41,297 nt of DNA from Thermodesulfobacteriota bacterium (GCA_024274915.1 JAJSAC010000043.1:1-41297); one strand, 5' to 3'. Counted from the stretch's first letter, positions 1 to 10,516 are shown. Notes: generated from the letters alone by a model not told the origin. Program-made: numbers and translations.

Positions 1-2869
1 AGGCATCCTCGTCATAGGTGGTCTCCACCACCTGCCTTTCAGGGAAGGGCAGCTTACCCTCATAACCAAAGTACCTGTCTATCTCCATGGCGGCTATACG
101 ACCGTGGGCCACGGCTTCCACCACCGTGGCGGGGTTGACGGAGTCGCCCCCGGAGAAGACCCCTGGGATACTGGTCCTCATGGTCCTGGGGTCCACCTGG
201 ACGAATCCCCACTTGTTGAAGAGCTCCTCCTGGGCCTGGAAACCCTCGGTGAGACCCTGACCTATACAAGGAACGAGTGTATCGGCCTCTATGACAAAAT
301 TGGAACCCTCAACGGGAACGGGACGCCTCCTGCCGCTCCTGTCAAAACCTTTAGTCTCCATACGGACACACTCTACACCGGTAACCTTGGTGTCGCCCAA
401 CACTTTCACGGGGGTGACGAGATAATTGATGAGCACCCCCTCCTCCAGGGCCTCCTCGATTTCTTCGGGAAAGGCAGGCATATCTCCCCTGGTACGCCGA
501 TAGATGATGCGTACTTCCTCAGCTCCCAGGCGCAAGGCCGTTCTGGCGGCGTCTATGGCGGTGTTACCGCCTCCCACCACCACCACCCTCTTACCGATAT
601 CCACCTTCTTGCCCAGGTTCACATCCCTGAGAAAGTCGATCCCATGATAGACGCCAGGGAGATCTTCGCCGGGCACGTTGAGCTTATAGGAGGAGTGGGC
701 ACCCACACCCACAAAGACAGCGTCAAAGCCCTCGTCAAAGAGACTCTGGAGGCTGTCCACCTTGTGATTAAGCTTCAGCTCTACACCCGCCTCCAGGATC
801 CTCTCTATCTCCCTGTCCAAGACCTCAGGGGGCAGGCGGTAGTCGGGTATACCCACCCTCATCATCCCACCGGCCACAGGGAGGGCTTCGAAAACCACGG
901 GTCTATAGCCCAAACGGGTGAGATAGAAGGCACAGCTCAAACCCGCGGGTCCAGCACCAATTATGGCCACCCTCTCCCTCTTGGAGTCTTCAGGAGGTTC
1001 CCATGGAGGGGCTTCTTTCAGGGCCCAATCGGCAAATATCCTCTTAACTTCTCTAATGGCCACGGGCTCATCAAATTTGGTCCTGTTACACTTCTTCTCA
1101 CAGAAGGCGGGACAAACCCTGGCACAGGCAGCTGGGAAGGGGTTGTTCTCCATGTGGACATAGTAAGCCTCGGGTATCTTCTTCTCCGCCACCCAAGAGA
1201 GGTAACGGGCGGGATCCACACCAGCAGGACAGGAGTTCTCGCATGGAGCGTAGAAGAGAGCCGCACATACACTGGCGGGACACTTCTTGTCTACTATATG
1301 GGCCTCGTACTCACCCCTGAAGTACTGGAGAGTGGAAAGGACGGGATTGGGAGCCGTCTGCCCCAGGCCACACAGGGAGGTATGGATGATGAGCTTGCCC
1401 AGGGTCTCCAGGGTGTCCAGATCTTCCAATCGCCCCTGCCCATTGGTGATCCTCTCCATGATGTTCAACATTTGCCTAAGCCCCACCCGACAGGGCACGC
1501 ACTGGCCGCAGGATTCCTCCACGGTAAACTCCAAGAAATACTTGGCGATATTCACCATGCAGGTGTCTTCGTCCAGGACGATCATCCCTCCAGAGCCCAT
1601 GATAGCGCCCAGCTCTTTCAGGGACTCGTAGTCTATGGGTGTGTCCAGGAACTGGGCAGGAATACAGCCGCCGGAAGGACCCCCCGTTTGGACGGCCTTA
1701 AACTTCTTACCCCCGGGAATACCACCACCGATGTCGAAAACCATCTCTCCGACAGTGGTGCCCATAGGCACCTCTACCAATCCAATGTTATGAACATTAC
1801 CCGTTAAAGAGAAGACCTTGGTACCCTTACTCGTCTCAGTCCCTATACTGGCAAACCAATCGGCACCCTTACGAATGACGGGAGCCACGCAAGCATAGGT
1901 CTCCACGTTGTTGATGTTAGTGGGCTTGCCCCAAACGCCCCTCTGAGCGGGGAAGGGAGGTTTGGGTCTGGGTTCTCCCCTGCCACCCTCAATGGACTTC
2001 ATGAGAGCCGTTTCCTCTCCACAGACAAAGGCTCCAGCACCAATCCGAATCTCTATATCGAAGTTGAACCCTGTACCCAGAATGTCCTCACCCAACAGGC
2101 CATACTCCCTGGCCTGGGCCATGGCGATCTCCAGTCTCTGGATGGCCATGGGATACTCCGCCCTGATGTAGATATAGCCCTTCTTCACATTCCCGATGGC
2201 ATAGGCAGCAATAGCCATGCCCTCCAGAACCCTGTGGGGATCTCCCTCCAAGACACCCTCATCCATAAAAGCCCCAGGATCCCCCTCGTCAGCATTGCAA
2301 ACAATGTACTTCTCGTATCCGGGAGACTTTCTGGTAAACTCCCACTTGAGTCCTGTGGGGAAACCGGCCCCACCCCTGCCTCTGAGGCCGCTCTTCTTAA
2401 TCTCTTCGATAACATCCTCAGGGGTCATCTCCATCAGAACCTTAGCCAGGGCCATATATCCGTCCCTGGCTATATATTCGTCTATAGACTCAGGATCTAT
2501 CTTGCCAGAGTTCTCTAAGACGATTTTGTGCTGCTTGGTGAAGAAGCTGTAAGTACTCAGGCTCTTCACCATCTCCCCAGTAACCTCCCGGGGAATGAGC
2601 CTAGATACAGGCCTTCCCTTGAGGAGGTGTTCCTCCACAATTTCCGGTACATCCTCCGGCTTCACCTTGCCGTACAGAATCATATCCGGGTATACGGTAA
2701 CCACAGGCCCCAGCTCGCAGATGCCCACACACCCACTCTTCATCACGTTCACTTCCACATTCAGACCCCTTCTTTCTACCTCCTGGGCAAGCGCCTCCAG
2801 CACTTTAGTGGCCCCGCTCGCCACACAAGCTGTACCCTGACAAACCAGCAAATGAACCCTATAAGCCAT
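1..2869 (-). CDS. NuoF/HydB-type subunit fused to an NfnB/GltD-like FAD-NAD(P) oxidoreductase (3' end off window)
   Basis: This is a flavin/Fe-S subunit of a soluble NAD(P)H-linked oxidoreductase, partial, with about 956 codons visible. Domains in order: a thioredoxin-fold [2Fe-2S] domain with four cysteines (C10, C15, C47, C51); a NuoF core with the FMN/NADH motif RGRGGAGFPTG near residue 160 and the [4Fe-4S] motif ESCGQCVPCR near 452; a cysteine-rich GltD-type Fe-S segment (CENSCPAG, about 541); an FAD motif IIGAGPAGLS (about 638) and a second dinucleotide motif VVVVGGGNTA (about 766). Start ATG follows GGAGG. It is the last visible gene of the 6260-1 operon. Known families: NuoF/HydB oxidise or reduce NAD(H); NfnB/GltD domains handle NADP(H) or pass electrons from flavin to Fe-S centres. 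The combination suggests an electron-bifurcating hydrogenase or an Stn/Nfn-like transhydrogenase. The partner subunit that would decide this lies outside the window. Confidence 0.9.
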   Translation of the reverse strand, partial: MAYRVHLLVCQGTACVASGATKVLEALAQEVERRGLNVEVNVMKSGCVGICELGPVVTVYPDMILYGKVKPEDVPEIVEEHLLKGRPVSRLIPREVTGEMVKSLSTYSFFTKQHKIVLENSGKIDPESIDEYIARDGYMALAKVLMEMTPEDVIEEIKKSGLRGRGGAGFPTGLKWEFTRKSPGYEKYIVCNADEGDPGAFMDEGVLEGDPHRVLEGMAIAAYAIGNVKKGYIYIRAEYPMAIQRLEIAMAQAREYGLLGEDILGTGFNFDIEIRIGAGAFVCGEETALMKSIEGGRGEPRPKPPFPAQRGVWGKPTNINNVETYACVAPVIRKGADWFASIGTETSKGTKVFSLTGNVHNIGLVEVPMGTTVGEMVFDIGGGIPGGKKFKAVQTGGPSGGCIPAQFLDTPIDYESLKELGAIMGSGGMIVLDEDTCMVNIAKYFLEFTVEESCGQCVPCRVGLRQMLNIMERITNGQGRLEDLDTLETLGKLIIHTSLCGLGQTAPNPVLSTLQYFRGEYEAHIVDKKCPASVCAALFYAPCENSCPAGVDPARYLSWVAEKKIPEAYYVHMENNPFPAACARVCPAFCEKKCNRTKFDEPVAIREVKRIFADWALKEAPPWEPPEDSKRERVAIIGAGPAGLSCAFYLTRLGYRPVVFEALPVAGGMMRVGIPDYRLPPEVLDREIERILEAGVELKLNHKVDSLQSLFDEGFDAVFVGVGAHSSYKLNVPGEDLPGVYHGIDFLRDVNLGKKVDIGKRVVVVGGGNTAIDAARTALRLGAEEVRIIYRRTRGDMPAFPEEIEEALEEGVLINYLVTPVKVLGDTKVTGVECVRMETKGFDRSGRRRPVPVEGSNFVIEADTLVPCIGQGLTEGFQAQEELFNKWGFVQVDPRTMRTSIPGVFSGGDSVNPATVVEAVAHGRIAAMEIDRYFGYEGKLPFPERQVVETTYDEDA

Positions 2870-2903
2870 GGATATCCTCCTTTATAATTGAGGCCTCATC
2901 CAA

Positions 2904-3284
2904 TCATTCTAAGGGAGTAAGAACCACATAACCCTGCACCACTTCTCCTTTCACTATGTGGCGCTCTACTATCTCTTTGGCCTTATCGGGAGTAAGGTTT
3001 CCGTAAGTGATTTTGTTCCCTTTGTCATCTTCCACTATGGCCACAGGCTGTATGGATCTGCTCCCCATAAACCCTGTCTGCGTAACGATAACATCCGTCA
3101 GGTTATGCTCTTCAATAGCATCTAAAAACGCTTTCATCACCTCCCTAGCTCCAACAACAATGCCTGAAGTCCCCATGGGAATAGTGACCTTAAACCTGTA
3201 CTTCCCCTCCCTTATGCTCATCTTTTTCCTTGTCTCTTCCCTTATCTTTCTCAATTGATCCAAAGTCTTTATCTTTTCTGCCAT
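2904..3284 (-). CDS. cysteine-free thioredoxin-fold protein related to [2Fe-2S] ferredoxin domains
   Basis: A 126-residue protein, preceded by a strong GGGGGAGG ribosome-binding site. The segment GTSGIVVGAREV resembles the start of thioredoxin-like [2Fe-2S] domains (usual pattern GTCGIAAGA), but the cysteine is serine and the whole protein has no cysteine, so it cannot bind a conventional [2Fe-2S] cluster. The ending pattern (YGNLTPDKAKEIVERHIV) matches the C-terminal helix of NuoE/NuoF-associated thioredoxin domains. An N-terminal helix (LRKIREETRKKM) precedes the fold. It sits directly upstream of the NuoF fusion gene in the same operon, and a close paralogue lies in the second NuoE/F cluster (7923-8297). 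Inference: a structural or assembly subunit of the oxidoreductase rather than an electron carrier. Confidence 0.8.
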   Translation of the reverse strand: MAEKIKTLDQLRKIREETRKKMSIREGKYRFKVTIPMGTSGIVVGAREVMKAFLDAIEEHNLTDVIVTQTGFMGSRSIQPVAIVEDDKGNKITYGNLTPDKAKEIVERHIVKGEVVQGYVVLTPLE

Positions 3285-3298
3285 GGCTCACCTCCCCC

Positions 3299-3850
3299 TT
3301 AGGCCGCTTCCATAACCTTAGCAAGGTTTTCTGACAAATACTCCTTTAAAAACTTGATCACCTCTGCATTAGAGAGGGGAACATCCCCCAGTATCTCCCT
3401 CACCTCTTGACTATCAAAAAAGAAGTCCCCCTTTCTGCTCTTGTACCTCAATACAAACCTCACCTGGGGACTGGAGACCACCATGGCCAGCACGGTACCG
3501 GCCAGATCCCCCATAGGAGGTCTATCTATATGGCCAAGTCTCATCTCGGCTTCCAGCATAGTCCCCTCTCCAGGGTGGCTCTCCATGCGAAAAGAGCCAT
3601 CACAGTGCTCTGCCACCCACTTAAACATAGGAATGCCCAATCCCACCCCTATATCCCTCTTAGTGGTGTAAAAGGGATCCCAAACCCGTTTCAACTCCTC
3701 AGGGGTCATCCCCTTTCCATTGTCCCTCACCTTGATCCTTAGCCTATCCCCATCCATATCTTCTTCTATTTCTAATTCCACCTTTCGGGCCCCCGCAGCC
3801 AGGGAATTCTGGAGCACATCCATAATGTGCAGCGAGAGCTCTTCCATCAT
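3299..3850 (-). CDS. histidine-kinase-type ATPase (HATPase_c) protein
   Basis: A 183-residue single-domain GHKL ATPase. Visible motifs are the N-box (HIMDVLQNSL, residues 8-17), the G1 box (DNGKGM, near 43-48) and the G2 region (GVGLGIP). The F-box region reads DPFYTTK. There is no dimerisation/phosphoacceptor domain and no membrane segment, so it is not a complete sensor kinase. The C-terminal 60 or so residues after the ATPase fold are unassigned. Its start overlaps the stop of the PHP gene by four bases (ATGA), showing translational coupling. Proteins of this type accompany hydrogenase/NuoEF operons in several anaerobes; a regulatory role in the redox operon is inference. Confidence 0.8.
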   Translation of the reverse strand: MMEELSLHIMDVLQNSLAAGARKVELEIEEDMDGDRLRIKVRDNGKGMTPEELKRVWDPFYTTKRDIGVGLGIPMFKWVAEHCDGSFRMESHPGEGTMLEAEMRLGHIDRPPMGDLAGTVLAMVVSSPQVRFVLRYKSRKGDFFFDSQEVREILGDVPLSNAEVIKFLKEYLSENLAKVMEAA

Positions 3851-4632
3851 GGGAATTCACCCACCACACCTCGAGATCGAGAGGAAGATGTCCTCAATAT
3901 ATTGACCCTCCCCCTTCCCTCCTCCAAGACCCCCCTTAGCCCCTCCCAGGAAGGGGTCTCCATGTGAAAGAGGGTAACCACAGCCCCTATGTCATCCAAA
4001 TAGTGGGCGTCGGAAGAGCCTACCAAGGTATAACCCTCCAGCTCCGGCCATTTGGAGAGGGCCTCCTGAGGTGTGATGGCCCTGGAAATCTCCACGGCCC
4101 TGAAACCCAAGTAGTCGGGCACGAAGCCCAGCTGGTTTATGATACCGAAGGTCTCACGGTCCACATGGGCCGGCAAAGAGATCCCCCGGTAGCTCCTCAC
4201 CATCTCAACGCACTGATCAAGGGAAAGGAGCAAAGAGTTAATGAGGAGCTTCTCCTCCACTCCCACAATATTGTCATGCTCATCCACGATCACCTGGTCA
4301 CCGAAGTAGTCGGGATCGTTCTTCACATCAGGCAGGTAAGGGTAGACCTCTTCCTTAAAGGCCAGGGCACCCCCCAGGGTCTCAAAGTAGGCCAGCAGGT
4401 GGACCTCTTCCTCGGTCTGGAGCTCCATACCAGGTATCAAGGTGATCCCCTCCTCATGGGCCACCTTCTCCACATAGACCAGATTGTCGCAGGTGTTGTG
4501 GTCCGTCACCGATATCAGATCCAACCCCCTCTTTTTGGCCTCCTCCACAATGGCCCTGGGGGACATGTAGAGGCTGCCACAGGGTGAAAGGGCAGAGTGT
4601 ATATGTAAGTCTCCTTTGAACCACTTGGCCAA
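3847..4632 (-). CDS. PHP-domain metal-dependent phosphoesterase
   Basis: A 261-residue PHP domain protein. The metal-binding motifs are present in order: DLHIHSALSPCG (residues 8-19), TDHNT (about 42-46), GMELQ (about 64-68), PAHVDRE (about 155) and SSDAH (about 211), so the active site looks intact. The most likely start is a TTG placed directly after the stop codon of the upstream gene, with a purine-rich AGGGGAAGGGG just before it. PHP proteins hydrolyse phosphoesters such as nucleotides or histidinol phosphate; the substrate here is unknown. It is encoded between DRTGG and HATPase genes in the redox operon, an arrangement that hints at nucleotide-based signalling linked to redox state. 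Confidence 0.85.
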   Translation of the reverse strand: MAKWFKGDLHIHSALSPCGSLYMSPRAIVEEAKKRGLDLISVTDHNTCDNLVYVEKVAHEEGITLIPGMELQTEEEVHLLAYFETLGGALAFKEEVYPYLPDVKNDPDYFGDQVIVDEHDNIVGVEEKLLINSLLLSLDQCVEMVRSYRGISLPAHVDRETFGIINQLGFVPDYLGFRAVEISRAITPQEALSKWPELEGYTLVGSSDAHYLDDIGAVVTLFHMETPSWEGLRGVLEEGRGRVNILRTSSSRSRGVVGEFP

Positions 4633-4971
4633 CTAACCCCTTCCCCTCAAAAGTTGGTACAGCTCACCACACAGCTCGAACAGCGGCCTATCAGACACCA
4701 TCAGAGCGACTCCTTCTTCCTGGGCCTTTCCCACAACCTCCTGGGCAGGCTTAATACCCTTGGCCAGCACGACACCCGCCAGGTCCCTGAGCTTAGCCAC
4801 GGCCACGATGTTCATGTGCCTCTGAATGGTGAGCCACAGATCCCCTGGCTGGGCACCGGCCATCACATCGGACAAAAGATCAGAGGTATAAGCCCAATTC
4901 ACCTCTTTGTCTGGATCCCCCTGGGCCAAAACCTCCAGGCCCAACCTCTCCACCACTTCTTTAAGCCGCAT
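4633..4971 (-). CDS. DRTGG-like domain protein (second copy in operon)
   Basis: A 112-residue protein if started at the ATG at 4971, which overlaps the preceding ATPase gene by 11 bases and follows a GAAGGGAG ribosome-binding sequence. A longer frame exists to 5037 but its extra 22 residues are unlikely. The sequence MRLKEVVERLGLEVL followed by a segment of alternating beta strands and helices (AYTSDLLSDVMAGAQPGDL, NIVAVAKLRDLAGVVLA) matches the DRTGG fold seen in proteins with CBS domains and in hydrogenase-associated genes. It is paralogous to 5404-5772 (shared DLLSDV and LFELCGELY/TFEVCGRLY segments). Likely a ligand-sensing regulatory partner; the ligand is unknown. Confidence 0.75.
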   Translation of the reverse strand: MRLKEVVERLGLEVLAQGDPDKEVNWAYTSDLLSDVMAGAQPGDLWLTIQRHMNIVAVAKLRDLAGVVLAKGIKPAQEVVGKAQEEGVALMVSDRPLFELCGELYQLLRGRG

Positions 4972-5404
4972 TCTCCCTTCTCCGGAAAACCACAGAATGG
5001 ATTTTGGTACCCTTACCCACTTCCGAGGTGAGCTCAAAAAAATCGGAGTTCTCTTTCATATTGGGAAGACCCATACCTGCCCCAAAACCCAACTCATGCA
5101 CCCACAAAGGGGCCGTAGAGTAACCGGGTTGCATGGCCTTCTCCACATCCTCAATCCCAGGACCATCGTCTTCCACATAGATGACCACCTTCTCGGGTTC
5201 CACCACCACCTCAATGTTGCCCCCCCGCTCCGTATAAAGGGCCAGATTCATCTCCGCCTCAAAACAGATGACAGCCACCCTTCTCACAGTCTCCCTCTCC
5301 ACCCCTGCCTCTTCCAAATCCCTCTTTATCTCCGTGGAGACCACCCCCACATCGTCAAAGCTTCCCGTACTCACCACCGAATAAGCAAACACTCGCCTTT
5401 CCAT
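4961..5404 (-). CDS. anti-sigma-factor-type (RsbW-like) serine kinase/ATPase
   Basis: A protein of about 147 residues with a compact GHKL ATPase fold like anti-sigma kinases. The N-box region is FEAEMNLALY, the G1 box DDGPGIEDVE, and the G2 region GFGAGMGLPNMKENSD. The start is taken as the ATG at 5404, overlapping the upstream stop codon (TGATG); a TTG one codon earlier is an alternative. RsbW-type proteins phosphorylate antagonist proteins and control sigma factors or enzymes. No STAS antagonist or sigma factor is visible nearby; the two adjoining DRTGG proteins are the natural candidate partners (inference). Confidence 0.8.
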   Translation of the reverse strand: MERRVFAYSVVSTGSFDDVGVVSTEIKRDLEEAGVERETVRRVAVICFEAEMNLALYTERGGNIEVVVEPEKVVIYVEDDGPGIEDVEKAMQPGYSTAPLWVHELGFGAGMGLPNMKENSDFFELTSEVGKGTKIHSVVFRRRENAA

Positions 5405-5772
5405 CAATCAGCTTCGTTTTCAAAACACTCGGAGCACCTCATGCCCCTGGTATACAGCCTTCCGCAGACCTCGAAAGTGGGCAAGGGAGTACTCAACAGC
5501 ACAATCCCCCTCTGGGTAGCCCATTTGACAATGTCCTTTTTCTGAGGCCTCTTACCCCTCACATAGAGGATAGCTCTTATATTCATCACATCGGCCACCC
5601 TCACCACTTGGGGGGCAGCCTCCCCCGTGATGAGGAGGGCAGCCTCTCCTCTCATGGCCAGAACATCGGACAAGAGATCGGCGGCACAGGCCGTGCGGAC
5701 CTCTTCATCGGCCCTCTCTTGCAGGTTGAGGAACTCTGCTTCCACCGTCTGCGCCACCTCTTCTAACGTCAT
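5404..5772 (-). CDS. DRTGG-like domain protein with cysteine-rich C-terminus
   Basis: A protein of about 122 residues, starting at the ATG at 5772 that overlaps the NuoE stop codon (TAATG) after GGAGGAAAG. The body resembles the DRTGG-like protein at 4633-4971 (CAADLLSDVLAM, VADVMNIRAILYV). The C-terminus carries CGRLYTRGMRCSECFENEAD, giving a cluster of cysteines (C-x9-C-x2-C) that the paralogue lacks and that could bind metal or an Fe-S centre; this is an inference from spacing only. It is the second gene of the operon, directly coupled to the NuoE-like gene and to the anti-sigma-type ATPase. Confidence 0.75.
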   Translation of the reverse strand: MTLEEVAQTVEAEFLNLQERADEEVRTACAADLLSDVLAMRGEAALLITGEAAPQVVRVADVMNIRAILYVRGKRPQKKDIVKWATQRGIVLLSTPLPTFEVCGRLYTRGMRCSECFENEAD

Positions 5773-6260
5773 TACGTCCTTTCCTCCTCGTAATAACCTC
5801 TCACTATATTCCACGCCTTCTGGGGACTGAGTCTACCATACACCTCTTTACCAATCACCATGACAGGAGCCAGAGGACAGGCTCCTACGCACCTCACCGT
5901 GCTCACCGTGAACTTCCCGTCTTTTGTGGTCCCACCTATCTTAATCCCCAGCTTCCTACACAGGGTCTCCAATACTTCCTTACTCCCCTTCACGTGACAG
6001 GCCGTGCCCAGACACACCCGAATTTCATACTCTCCCATGGGTTCTGTGCGGAAGAAATTGTAAAAAGAGACCACACCGTAAACATGACTGGCGGGAATCT
6101 CCAGTTCTTGGGCTATATACTCGATGATCTCTGGAGGTAGATAACCAAAGACACCCTGGGAGAAATGCAACGCCTTAATAAGGGACCCCTTATCCCCCCT
6201 AAACTGGGACACAAACTCTTTTACCCTGTTGTGCTCCGGTGTATCGGGTAGCTTCACCAT
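5772..6260 (-). CDS. NuoE/HydC-like [2Fe-2S] thioredoxin-fold subunit
   Basis: A 162-residue subunit of the NuoE (24-kDa, complex I) / HydC family. The N-terminal helical part (ALHFSQGVFGYLPPEIIEYIA) is followed by the thioredoxin-fold domain with all four cluster ligands: VCLGTACHVKG and VRCVGACPLAP. The ATG start follows GGAGGGAG. First gene of the minus-strand operon; together with the NuoF fusion at 1-2869 it would form the NAD(H)-FMN-[2Fe-2S] module of a bifurcating hydrogenase, formate dehydrogenase or transhydrogenase. Which one cannot be decided without the missing large subunit. Confidence 0.92.
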   Translation of the reverse strand: MVKLPDTPEHNRVKEFVSQFRGDKGSLIKALHFSQGVFGYLPPEIIEYIAQELEIPASHVYGVVSFYNFFRTEPMGEYEIRVCLGTACHVKGSKEVLETLCRKLGIKIGGTTKDGKFTVSTVRCVGACPLAPVMVIGKEVYGRLSPQKAWNIVRGYYEEERT

Positions 6261-7774: not shown

Positions 7775-7922
7775 ATACCCATACCTCCAGACAGAGCGAG
7801 GCCAAACAACCTCTAAGGGAAAGAAAAACCTAATTGTGAAAAATGGAACCCTCTTGACTCAAGAAAGTTTTGCTCCTAAAGTAGGCACGGCTCTTAAGGC
7901 ACGTTCCAGTTGGGAGGAACAA

Positions 7923-8297
7923 ATGAAACTAGATGAACTGAGGAAGATAAGAGAGCGTGCAGCAAAAGAACTCCATCTGCGCACGGGAAAGGCACGGGTA
8001 AAAGTCATTGTAAGCATGGGTACCAGCGGAATAGCCGCAGGGGCCCGGGAAGTACTCTCCGCCTTCTTGGAAGCCATCGCCAAATACAACCTGAAGGACG
8101 TGGTTGTCATCCAGAGTGGGGAAAGGGGATACGCCTCCTTTGAACCTGTAGTGGAAGTCCGAGAGGAAGGGAAACCCACCATCATTTATGGAAATATGAC
8201 ACCCGACAGGGCTGCGCGGGTGGTAAGGGAACACCTCATGCAAGGCAAACCTGTTACAGAGTATGCCGTAGAGGTGAAGGAGGAAGAAGAGGGATAG
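7923..8297 (+). CDS. cysteine-free thioredoxin-fold protein (paralogue of 2904-3284)
   Basis: A 124-residue protein starting at the ATG after TTGGGAGGAACAA; a longer frame from 7836 is less likely. It closely matches the protein at 2904-3284: LRKIRERAAKELHLRTGK, GTSGIAAGAREVL, YGNMTPDRAARVVREHLM. As there, the cluster-binding cysteines are absent (no cysteine at all), so a [2Fe-2S] cluster is not expected. It is the first gene of the second NuoE/NuoF set. That both sets carry one such protein argues for a conserved accessory role in complex assembly or regulation, which is inference. Confidence 0.8.
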   Translation: MKLDELRKIRERAAKELHLRTGKARVKVIVSMGTSGIAAGAREVLSAFLEAIAKYNLKDVVVIQSGERGYASFEPVVEVREEGKPTIIYGNMTPDRAARVVREHLMQGKPVTEYAVEVKEEEEG

Positions 8298-8334
8298 CAC
8301 CAAAGGACCCTTCGCAGAGGGTCAGCTAACCAAC

Positions 8335-8895
8335 ATGGAGAGGAGGTTTCCAGTGCACCTACAACCGGACCAACATAGCAAGGTGTTAAAGATACTGCAG
8401 AAGTATCCCCCTTTCCGGGAGAAATTGCACGAGTACCTAAAAATCATAGAAAAGTACCCCCCCTCCAGAGAACACATGCTGGACATGCTACACGACATAC
8501 AGGACTATGAACCCAAGCACTACTTACCCCGAGAGGCCCTTATGGCCGTGGCCGAATACCTGGATCTTCCCCTGGCTGAAGTGGCCAGCACGGTGAGCTT
8601 CTATTCCATGTTCAGCCTGGAACCAAGGGGCAAACACATTATTAGGGTCTGTATCTCTCCTCCTTGTCAAGCCCTGGGAGGTTCCACCATCCTGGTGGCC
8701 CTCAAAGACGCACTCAACATCAATGTGGGAGACGTCACCTCCGACGGCATCTTCACCCTGGAAACCACCAGTTGTCTGGGAGTTTGCGGGGTGGCTCCAG
8801 CCATGATGATAGACAACGACGTGTACGGAAACCTCACGGAAGAGAAAATCCAAAGGATTATTGAAGAGATAAGGAGGAGAGATGCGGCACATTAG
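8335..8895 (+). CDS. NuoE/HydC-like [2Fe-2S] subunit (second set)
   Basis: A 186-residue NuoE-family protein. The N-terminal helices (residues 1-75) carry a repeated KYPP motif (LQKYPPFREKLHEYL and IEKYPPSREHMLDML), unusual for NuoE and possibly an internal duplication. The thioredoxin fold follows with all four cluster ligands (VCISPPCQ; TSCLGVCG). It overlaps the downstream NuoF gene by 14 bases. With 8882-10516 it would form an NADH-oxidising or NAD-reducing FMN module. Confidence 0.92.
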   Translation: MERRFPVHLQPDQHSKVLKILQKYPPFREKLHEYLKIIEKYPPSREHMLDMLHDIQDYEPKHYLPREALMAVAEYLDLPLAEVASTVSFYSMFSLEPRGKHIIRVCISPPCQALGGSTILVALKDALNINVGDVTSDGIFTLETTSCLGVCGVAPAMMIDNDVYGNLTEEKIQRIIEEIRRRDAAH

Positions 8896-10516
8896 ATGCC
8901 ATGTGCTGATAGGTGTCGACGCCAACTCCTTGCTCGCTGGGGCAAAGGCCGTAGAACAAGCCCTCATCAAGGAATTGGCTGATAAAGGACTGGCTGACGA
9001 GGTTCAGGTTATAGAAACGGGTAGCCTGGGCCCCATAGGGCAGGGAGTGATCCTGGTGGTATATCCCGACGCCGTAGCCTATGCCAACGTCACTGTGGAC
9101 GACGTGCCCGAGATTGTCACGGAGCACCTCCTCAAAGGTCGCCCCGTCAAAAGACTCCAGGTTCCCTTGGCTCCAGAAGAGAGGGTAGTGGAGATCAAGC
9201 CCACGGGACTGGTCAAAAAGCCCCAGCCCCGAGTGGTGCTCCAGAACTGCGGCGTCATAGACCCGGAAAGCCTGGAGGAAGCCATCGCCGCCGGGGACTA
9301 CCAGGCCCTGGTCAAAGTAATTGAAGAAGGAATGAGCCCCAAGGACGTCATGGAGGAAGTGACCAAATCGGGGCTCAGAGGCAGAGGAGGAGCAGGGTTC
9401 CCCACGGGAAAGAAGTGGTCCTTCACCGCTCCAGGGCCTCAAAAGTACCTCATCTGCAACGCTGACGAAGGCGAGCCAGGCACCTTTAAAGACAGACTCA
9501 TCCTGGAGGGAGACCCCCACAGGCTCATAGAAAGTATGATCTTAGCAGGATATGCCATTGGAGCCACCAAAGGCTATATCTACATCCGAGGAGAATACAC
9601 CCTCTCCATCGCCAGGATAAGCAAAGCCATAGAGCAAGCCTACAGGGAGAACCTCCTGGGGGACAACATACTGGACTCAGGCATCACCTTCCATCTGGAA
9701 ATCAAAAAGGGTGCCGGGGCCTATGTGTGTGGAGAAGAGACGGCCCTCATTGAGTCCATAGAAGGCAAGAGGGGACAGCCTAGACTCAAACCCCCCTTCC
9801 CCGCTGTACAAGGGTTATGGGGCAAGCCCACCGTGGTGAACAACGTGGAGACCCTCTCCAACATTCCTCCCATTATCCTCAATGGAGCAGACTGGTACCG
9901 CTCTTTCGGCACCCCCACCTGCCCAGGCACCAAGGTTTACACCATCCTGGGACACATAGAGACCCCAGGTCTTATTGAAGTGGAGATGGGAACCACCCTC
10001 AGGGATATCATCTTTGAGTACGGCGGAGGCATCAGAAAGGGCAAAAAGTTCAAGGGGGCCCTGGTAGGAGGAGCCGCCGGCGCCTTCCTAAACGAGTCCC
10101 AGCTGGATGTGCAGATGGACTACGACAGCCTAAAGGAGTATGCTGCCGTGCTGGGCTCTGGAGCCATTCTGGTCATGGATGAGGAGACCTCGGTAGTCAG
10201 CCTCTTACATTCCATTCTCTCCTTCTTCGAACACGAGTCCTGTGGCCAGTGTACCCCCTGCAGGATGGGGACCAGATCCTTGCTCACCATTATGGAGAGA
10301 ATAGTGAGGGGCCAAGGCACAGAGAAAGACCTGGATCTGCTCCTCCAAGTCTCAGAAAATATGCAGGTCTCTTCCCTGTGCCCCCTGGGCCAGTCCCCCA
10401 TCTTGCCCATTAAAAGCGCTTTGGACTACTTCAGGGATGAGTTTCTGGAGCGGGTATCAGGCAAGTGGACAGAACCTCCCCTCCAGGCCCATGAGGAGGC
10501 CAGCCAAGTCGGATAA
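8882..10516 (+). CDS. NuoF/HydB-like FMN and [4Fe-4S] subunit (second set)
   Basis: A 544-residue NuoF-family protein. An N-terminal thioredoxin-like domain (1-95) is followed by the NuoF core with RGRGGAGFPTGKKW (NADH/FMN site), CNADEGEPGTFKDR, GAGAYVCGEETALIESIEG and the [4Fe-4S] ligands SCGQCTPCR with a later SSLCPLGQ. The N-terminal domain has lost its cluster ligands (GVDANSLLAGA where HydB has cysteine; GSLGPIGQG where CxGxC is usual). Compared with HydB it also lacks the C-terminal double [4Fe-4S] ferredoxin domain, ending soon after the NuoF core. No catalytic partner (HydA, FdhA, NuoG-like) is encoded next to it, so its electron acceptor is unknown and may be a subunit encoded elsewhere. 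Confidence 0.93.
   Translation: MRHIRCHVLIGVDANSLLAGAKAVEQALIKELADKGLADEVQVIETGSLGPIGQGVILVVYPDAVAYANVTVDDVPEIVTEHLLKGRPVKRLQVPLAPEERVVEIKPTGLVKKPQPRVVLQNCGVIDPESLEEAIAAGDYQALVKVIEEGMSPKDVMEEVTKSGLRGRGGAGFPTGKKWSFTAPGPQKYLICNADEGEPGTFKDRLILEGDPHRLIESMILAGYAIGATKGYIYIRGEYTLSIARISKAIEQAYRENLLGDNILDSGITFHLEIKKGAGAYVCGEETALIESIEGKRGQPRLKPPFPAVQGLWGKPTVVNNVETLSNIPPIILNGADWYRSFGTPTCPGTKVYTILGHIETPGLIEVEMGTTLRDIIFEYGGGIRKGKKFKGALVGGAAGAFLNESQLDVQMDYDSLKEYAAVLGSGAILVMDEETSVVSLLHSILSFFEHESCGQCTPCRMGTRSLLTIMERIVRGQGTEKDLDLLLQVSENMQVSSLCPLGQSPILPIKSALDYFRDEFLERVSGKWTEPPLQAHEEASQVG

Follow-up and report, generated by a model that had tools for sequence, protein, structure and literature searches.

HydC and a HydB-type NuoF fused to a GltD-like flavodomain appear to take the place of NuoEF in a complex I operon of a Thermodesulfobacteriota bacterium

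Hydrogenase and diaphorase modules are the presumed building blocks of complex I. Nuo-Bfu, a form of complex I predicted to have BfuABC as its N-module, comprises BfuB clades 38 and 39, from Deferribacteres, Proteobacteria including Geobacter, Planctomycetes, and Nitrospirae (Schut et al., 2022, PMC9304861). The Stn or Nfn-Bfu transhydrogenases include StnABC of S. ovata and NfnABC of C. saccharolyticus and T. sibiricus (PDB 8oh5, 9bov, 9n5u), and the bifurcating hydrogenase NiFe-HydABCSL is known from Acetomicrobium mobile (PMC8880783; PDB 7t2r). In HydB, the proposed low-potential route to ferredoxin is C1-B2-B3-B4. Here we describe a gene cluster at the edge of a 41,297-nucleotide stretch from a Thermodesulfobacteriota bacterium (GCA_024274915.1, JAJSAC010000043.1:1-41297). 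This stretch, called the window below, is the entire contig C36 of genome G000, which belongs to family f1. The cluster encodes a HydC/NuoE-type subunit, a HydB-type NuoF fused to a GltD-like flavodomain, and small accessory genes between them, and its enzyme subunits probably form the N-module in a respiratory complex I that has been rebuilt.

As in Nuo-Bfu, the NuoEF position in the complex I operon is taken by a HydBC-type bifurcating core, and menaquinone is the likely acceptor; menaquinone-pathway proteins (PF02621) are present in the genome. The published description of Nuo-Bfu sets it apart, because BfuB there requires a C-terminal 4Fe-4S ferredoxin domain, whereas the protein described here has an NADP(H) flavodomain. 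BfuBC also lie mid-cluster in Nuo-Bfu, whereas here they are upstream of nuoA with a putative regulatory cassette. The likeness to Stn lies in three parts: StnB is HydB-type, StnA is HydC-type, and the GltD domain is Stn-type, its cluster ligand being Lys. In Stn, however, the GltD domain belongs to a NuoG-like subunit and the ferredoxin domain of StnB is retained, whereas here GltD replaces that domain on the HydB-like subunit, with complex I as the partner. NiFe-HydABCSL is the closest solved sequence to the NuoF half, but it has a hydrogenase partner and the ferredoxin exit clusters B3 and B4. The combination appears to be new, as neither the predicted Nuo-Bfu nor the characterised Stn has it; the gene-level evidence is strong, and the function is predicted. 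We found no description of a HydB-GltD fusion in complex I in a literature search that excluded most subscription journals, and an unseen report is possible.

The cluster runs on the minus strand from position 6260 to the window edge, in the order NuoE/HydC, DRTGG, SpoIIAB-like HATPase, DRTGG, PHP, HATPase, Cys-less ferredoxin-like protein, and NuoF-GltD fusion (Table 1). Its genes are tightly packed, with overlaps of 43, 4, 11, and 4 bp and gaps of 0, 14, and 34 bp. The first 141 bases of the window (1-141) are identical to the last 141 bases of contig C19. Joining the two contigs gives a fusion of 1023 amino acids, the last 67 of them on C19, and nuoA, B, C, D, G, H, I, J, K, L, M, and N come after it on the same strand of C19, outside the window. 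An assembly artefact at the join was excluded because the order is contiguous on single contigs of two other f1 genomes: in G004 (L130) it extends from NuoE across cassette and fusion as far as NuoN, and in G003 (L129) it reaches NuoG, where the contig ends. The order of the cluster genes is identical in both (62-82% identity), so the arrangement is not due to chance. Of the subunits of a 14-subunit complex I, NuoA, B, C, D, and G-N are all in one cluster, with HydC- and HydB-type proteins instead of canonical NuoE and NuoF. The initial annotation had expected a HydA-, FdhA-, or Stn-like partner beyond position 1, which would make the locus an operon for a bifurcating hydrogenase, formate dehydrogenase, or Stn complex together with the genes that control it. 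Elsewhere, such enzymes do have this module and cassette, but with nuoA-D and G-N coming next, and no [FeFe] hydrogenase found by PF02906 search in G000 or nine further genomes, this reading is hardly credible.

Sister families f2 and f3 of the same order carry a standard complex I operon, fullest in G008 (L128; NuoA-B-CD-E-F-G-H-I-J-K-L-M) and otherwise in parts (L125-L127). Their NuoF is 421-425 amino acids long without N-terminal 2Fe-2S or GltD domains, and no cassette was seen in the stretches read of L126-L128. Most core Nuo subunits of f2 and f3 are about 70-80% identical to those of G000, with lower values for NuoJ and NuoN. The N-terminal domain of NuoG is about 60% identical, which marks NuoG of the window's genome as native, while identity to the window's proteins is 47-50% for NuoF and 35-39% for NuoE. 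Canonical NuoF (about 425 amino acids) was not found in four f1 genomes (G000, G002, G003, and G004), and each of the four PF01257 proteins in G000 has been assigned. Every f1 contig that reaches far enough has a HydC/HydB-type pair upstream of nuoA. In a tree of 57 NuoF-like sequences, the f1 fusions are inside the HydB clade (support 100/100), away from the canonical NuoF of the order, and nearest to sequences from Aminicenantes, Bipolaricaulota, Coatesbacteria, and WOR-3 (93/89); one fragment from the same genome (L014) is labelled "other" in the group table of this tree, which does not affect the outcome. By gene content, the f1 complex I operon has lost exactly NuoE and NuoF, and has HydC and a HydB-type NuoF with GltD upstream. 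Tree position and cluster ligands identify the NuoEF of f1 as the HydBC ("Bfu") core known from bifurcating hydrogenases. One bacterial order holds both the state before (canonical NuoEF) and the state after (HydBC-GltD), and therefore the module exchange can be dated and tested.

The fusion and HydC could instead form a soluble transhydrogenase or diaphorase that merely shares a transcript with a complex I without NuoEF, which would be fed by ferredoxin through NuoG. A gap of 125-141 bp separates the fusion gene from nuoA, and elsewhere the fusion adjoins soluble partners. Complexes without an N-module also occur in this genome, as it has a second complex I operon of the 11-subunit type (L138:9360-19557, on contig C62) encoding NuoA-D and H-N without NuoE, F, and G. 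However, NuoG of the main operon has been kept, is native, and has its N-terminal cluster domains; precisely NuoE and NuoF are gone, and the replacement pair is upstream of nuoA wherever f1 contigs extend there. We consider a soluble complex unlikely, and an N-module of complex I the probable role of the pair.

Pfam domains of the fusion are a thioredoxin-like 2Fe-2S domain (residues 4-80), Complex1_51K, NADH_4Fe-4S, Fer4_20 (532-619), and Pyr_redox_2 (633-923). Among PDB sequences, the NuoF half matches HydB of NiFe-HydABCSL with 817 bits and NuoF of complex I (2fug) with 422 bits. Ligands of B1, B2 (Cys/Thr/His/Cys/Cys), and B5 are intact in the fusion, and those of C1 in HydC, as in a Bfu core (cluster names follow PMC9304861 and PMC8880783). 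Canonical NuoF of f2 and f3 lacks B5 and the last B2 Cys; it also aligns a His at B2, so this His alone is not diagnostic. The earlier proposal that a bifurcating-type NADH/flavin mononucleotide (FMN) module and a flavin adenine dinucleotide (FAD)-NADP(H) module are combined in one chain is borne out. A ferredoxin link had been proposed as well, and this was not supported: bifurcating HydB has a C-terminal 2[4Fe-4S] domain for ferredoxin exit (B3, B4 on BfuB) that is missing here, and Pfam gave no Fer4-type match in the fusion besides Fer4_20 of the GltD part. Several such matches occur in a 612-amino-acid HydB encoded elsewhere in the genome (L008, on contig C15). At this locus (L008:4339-10382), pyruvate-oxidoreductase-like genes are followed by NuoE, this HydB, and a short HydA-like gene, an arrangement resembling predicted Por-Bfu; the L008 HydB aligns with only one of the four B5 cysteines.

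The GltD half begins where the ferredoxin domain would be expected in HydB, with its cluster motif starting eight residues past the last B2 Cys (C535 to C543, L130 numbering). It matches Stn-type chains in the PDB more closely (401 and 366 bits) than NfnB (320 and 269 bits). For the proximal cluster it has a Lys ligand, which corresponds to K170 of StnC and to a Glu in NfnB, and it has the FAD and NADP motifs of a Stn-type GltD domain; NuoG shows no GltD domain. An AlphaFold2 model of the G004 orthologue (predicted local distance difference test score 88, predicted template modelling score 0.82) has fold matches in the PDB to HydB/StnB and StnC. Structural-search matches mostly cover model residues 5-540, and the assignment of the GltD half rests on Foldseek matches to Stn-type chains and NfnB, and on sequence. 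Elsewhere in the genome, L010:5468-12299 (contig C48) encodes a 1134-amino-acid protein with a GltD-like part beside two others, a small one resembling MvhD and a large one resembling oxidoreductases, identities guessed from sequence starts.

Nfn-like bifurcation, in which the GltD FAD would split NADPH electrons between ferredoxin and complex I, is suggested by conservation of the Arg equivalent to NfnB R201. Yet the FAD of StnC is non-bifurcating with the same Arg present (PMC10482914), and the Lys ligand and closer match to Stn-type chains point away from NfnB. There is also no ferredoxin-docking Fer4 domain in the fusion by Pfam. Such bifurcation is therefore improbable. The cluster contains no gene resembling NfnA, the PyrK-like partner in NfnAB; an NfnBA-like pair is encoded elsewhere (L009). 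Sequence is compatible with a non-catalytic role of the GltD half, as an NADP(H) sensor or structural remnant, but nearly all aligned fusions retain the six Cys, the Lys, the Arg, and both the FAD and the NADP motif, which makes this role very improbable.

Tabulated potentials (E') are -280 mV for NADH, -380 mV for NADPH, and -74 mV for menaquinone (PMC9304861), and the computed energy to menaquinone per two electrons would be about -40 kJ from NADH and about -59 kJ from NADPH. In the proposed enzyme, HydC and the HydB-GltD fusion would assemble on NuoG as electron-entry module. FMN of the HydB part would oxidise NADH, and FAD of the GltD part would oxidise NADPH, with the GltD clusters passing electrons to the B2 and C1 clusters around FMN. 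Both electron streams would go via B1 (N3) to NuoG and then to menaquinone, driving proton pumping; the reverse route could make NADPH and NADH from menaquinol, spending the proton gradient.

Because the ferredoxin-exit domain is missing, NADP(H) most likely replaces ferredoxin in the fusion. We tentatively suggest that this complex I is flavin-coupled and that NADP(H) would serve as the low-potential partner of its bifurcating HydBC core. NADH and NADPH would be confurcated to menaquinone with proton pumping, or menaquinol and the proton gradient would yield NADPH in reverse, and the enzyme would have originated by replacement of NuoEF with a hydrogenase diaphorase and its regulators. Several points weigh against the N-module reading as a whole. 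The 125-141 bp gap before nuoA means that co-transcription with the fusion gene is not proven, and the genome also encodes canonical NfnAB (L009), which provides transhydrogenase by another route. HydB of S. wolfei, which is without B3 and B4, does not bifurcate (PMC11406978), so plain dual input without energetic coupling is possible. If the proposed enzyme works as described, a respiratory proton pump directly uses or makes NADPH, which bears on NADPH supply in anaerobes, and nature offers a test of the HydBC core: does it depend on ferredoxin as such, or just on a low-potential partner?

Table 1. Genes of the cluster in the window
Feature	Position	Strand	Remarks
HydC/NuoE-type subunit	5772-6260	-	first gene of cluster; PF01257 E=2e-50
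DRTGG protein 1	5404-5814	-	PF07085 E=2e-5; 24.8 bits, slightly below Pfam's 25.2
SpoIIAB/RsbW-like HATPase	4961-5407	-	PF02518, PF13581; TIGR01925 E=1.8e-14, below curated cut-off
DRTGG protein 2	4633-4971	-	weak match alone; start 4971 favoured over 5037
PHP-family phosphoesterase	3847-4632	-	PF02811, PF13263
Stand-alone HATPase	3299-3850	-	PF02518 (HATPase_c) E=2e-16
Thioredoxin-like 2Fe-2S-ferredoxin homologue	2904-3284	-	NF041612 E=2e-10, below cut-off; zero Cys
HydB/NuoF-GltD fusion	2-2869	-	open reading frame runs off position 1; first 956 of 1023 amino acids

The HydC/NuoE-type protein scores highest among NCBIfam models with HoxE (165 bits, compared to 138 for NuoE), is 54-56% identical to HydC-type proteins encoded beside Aminicenantes fusions, and has the four Cys for one [2Fe-2S] intact. 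Five regulatory-type genes between the two enzyme subunits had been recognised in the initial annotation and are present; a sixth small gene, the ferredoxin-like one, had gone unmentioned. Homologues of DRTGG protein 1 are present in HydABC operons, and PF07085 matched 10 of 10 scanned homologues of DRTGG protein 2. The SpoIIAB/RsbW-like HATPase has conserved N, G1, and G2 boxes. In the stand-alone HATPase, N15, D43xGxG, and G70LG are conserved and no HisKA domain was found. The PHP protein conserves several metal-ligand-type residues (H156, D208, H210). Homologues of the ferredoxin-like protein also have zero Cys in Aminicenantes, Bipolaricaulota, and WOR-3, and three Cys in Firmicutes, Coprothermobacter, and Coatesbacteria. 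When the surroundings of the cluster were scanned for promoters and terminators, no signal exceeded chance level.

Full-length fusions are encoded by at least 45 of the 386 genomes in the sample, which was drawn mostly at family level; rarity of the fusion as such was therefore rejected. Its neighbours are mostly [FeFe] HydA, [NiFe] SL subunits, formate-dehydrogenase/NuoG-like proteins, and HdrA-like proteins; these labels were assigned by best match within a small reference set and are approximate in borderline cases (FdhA or NuoG). Two families only have the fusion in a complex I context: f1, where it replaces NuoEF, and f110 (L180 and L181; G115 and G249), where a NuoE-fusion-NuoG-like set lies between NuoG and NuoH of an operon that retains normal NuoEFG. 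In a quick tree (Shimodaira-Hasegawa-like approximate likelihood ratio support only), the complex I label requires at least two separate changes.

The DRTGG/HATPase/PHP set occurs beside HydBC with [FeFe] (L164, L176), [NiFe] (L027), Hdr-like (L133, L175), and complex I partners, and therefore goes with HydBC and not with any single catalytic partner. Thermoanaerobacter and Coprothermobacter have it in plain HydABC operons, accompanied by a small protein that resembles [FeFe] hydrogenase, and many fusions are without it. Judging by their names, HydD, HydP, and HisK of A. mobile may match the DRTGG, PHP, and HATPase genes; our literature search found no direct study of the cassette in hydrogenase operons. 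A role in regulation or maturation is plausible, and the five genes may have been acquired together with HydBC from a hydrogenase-type cluster. Nucleotide- or phosphorylation-based control of the enzyme, as suggested in the initial annotation, is conjectural.

Outside the cluster, the window encodes a second diaphorase (7836-10516, plus strand), consisting of a Cys-less ferredoxin-like protein, a NuoE-like protein, and a 544-amino-acid NuoF2. The NuoF2 clade otherwise accompanies hydrogenase clusters, though the search of G000 found no [FeFe] hydrogenase. As a component of the fusion system it was set aside, being absent from G003 and G004, and it was observed in genus g1 only.

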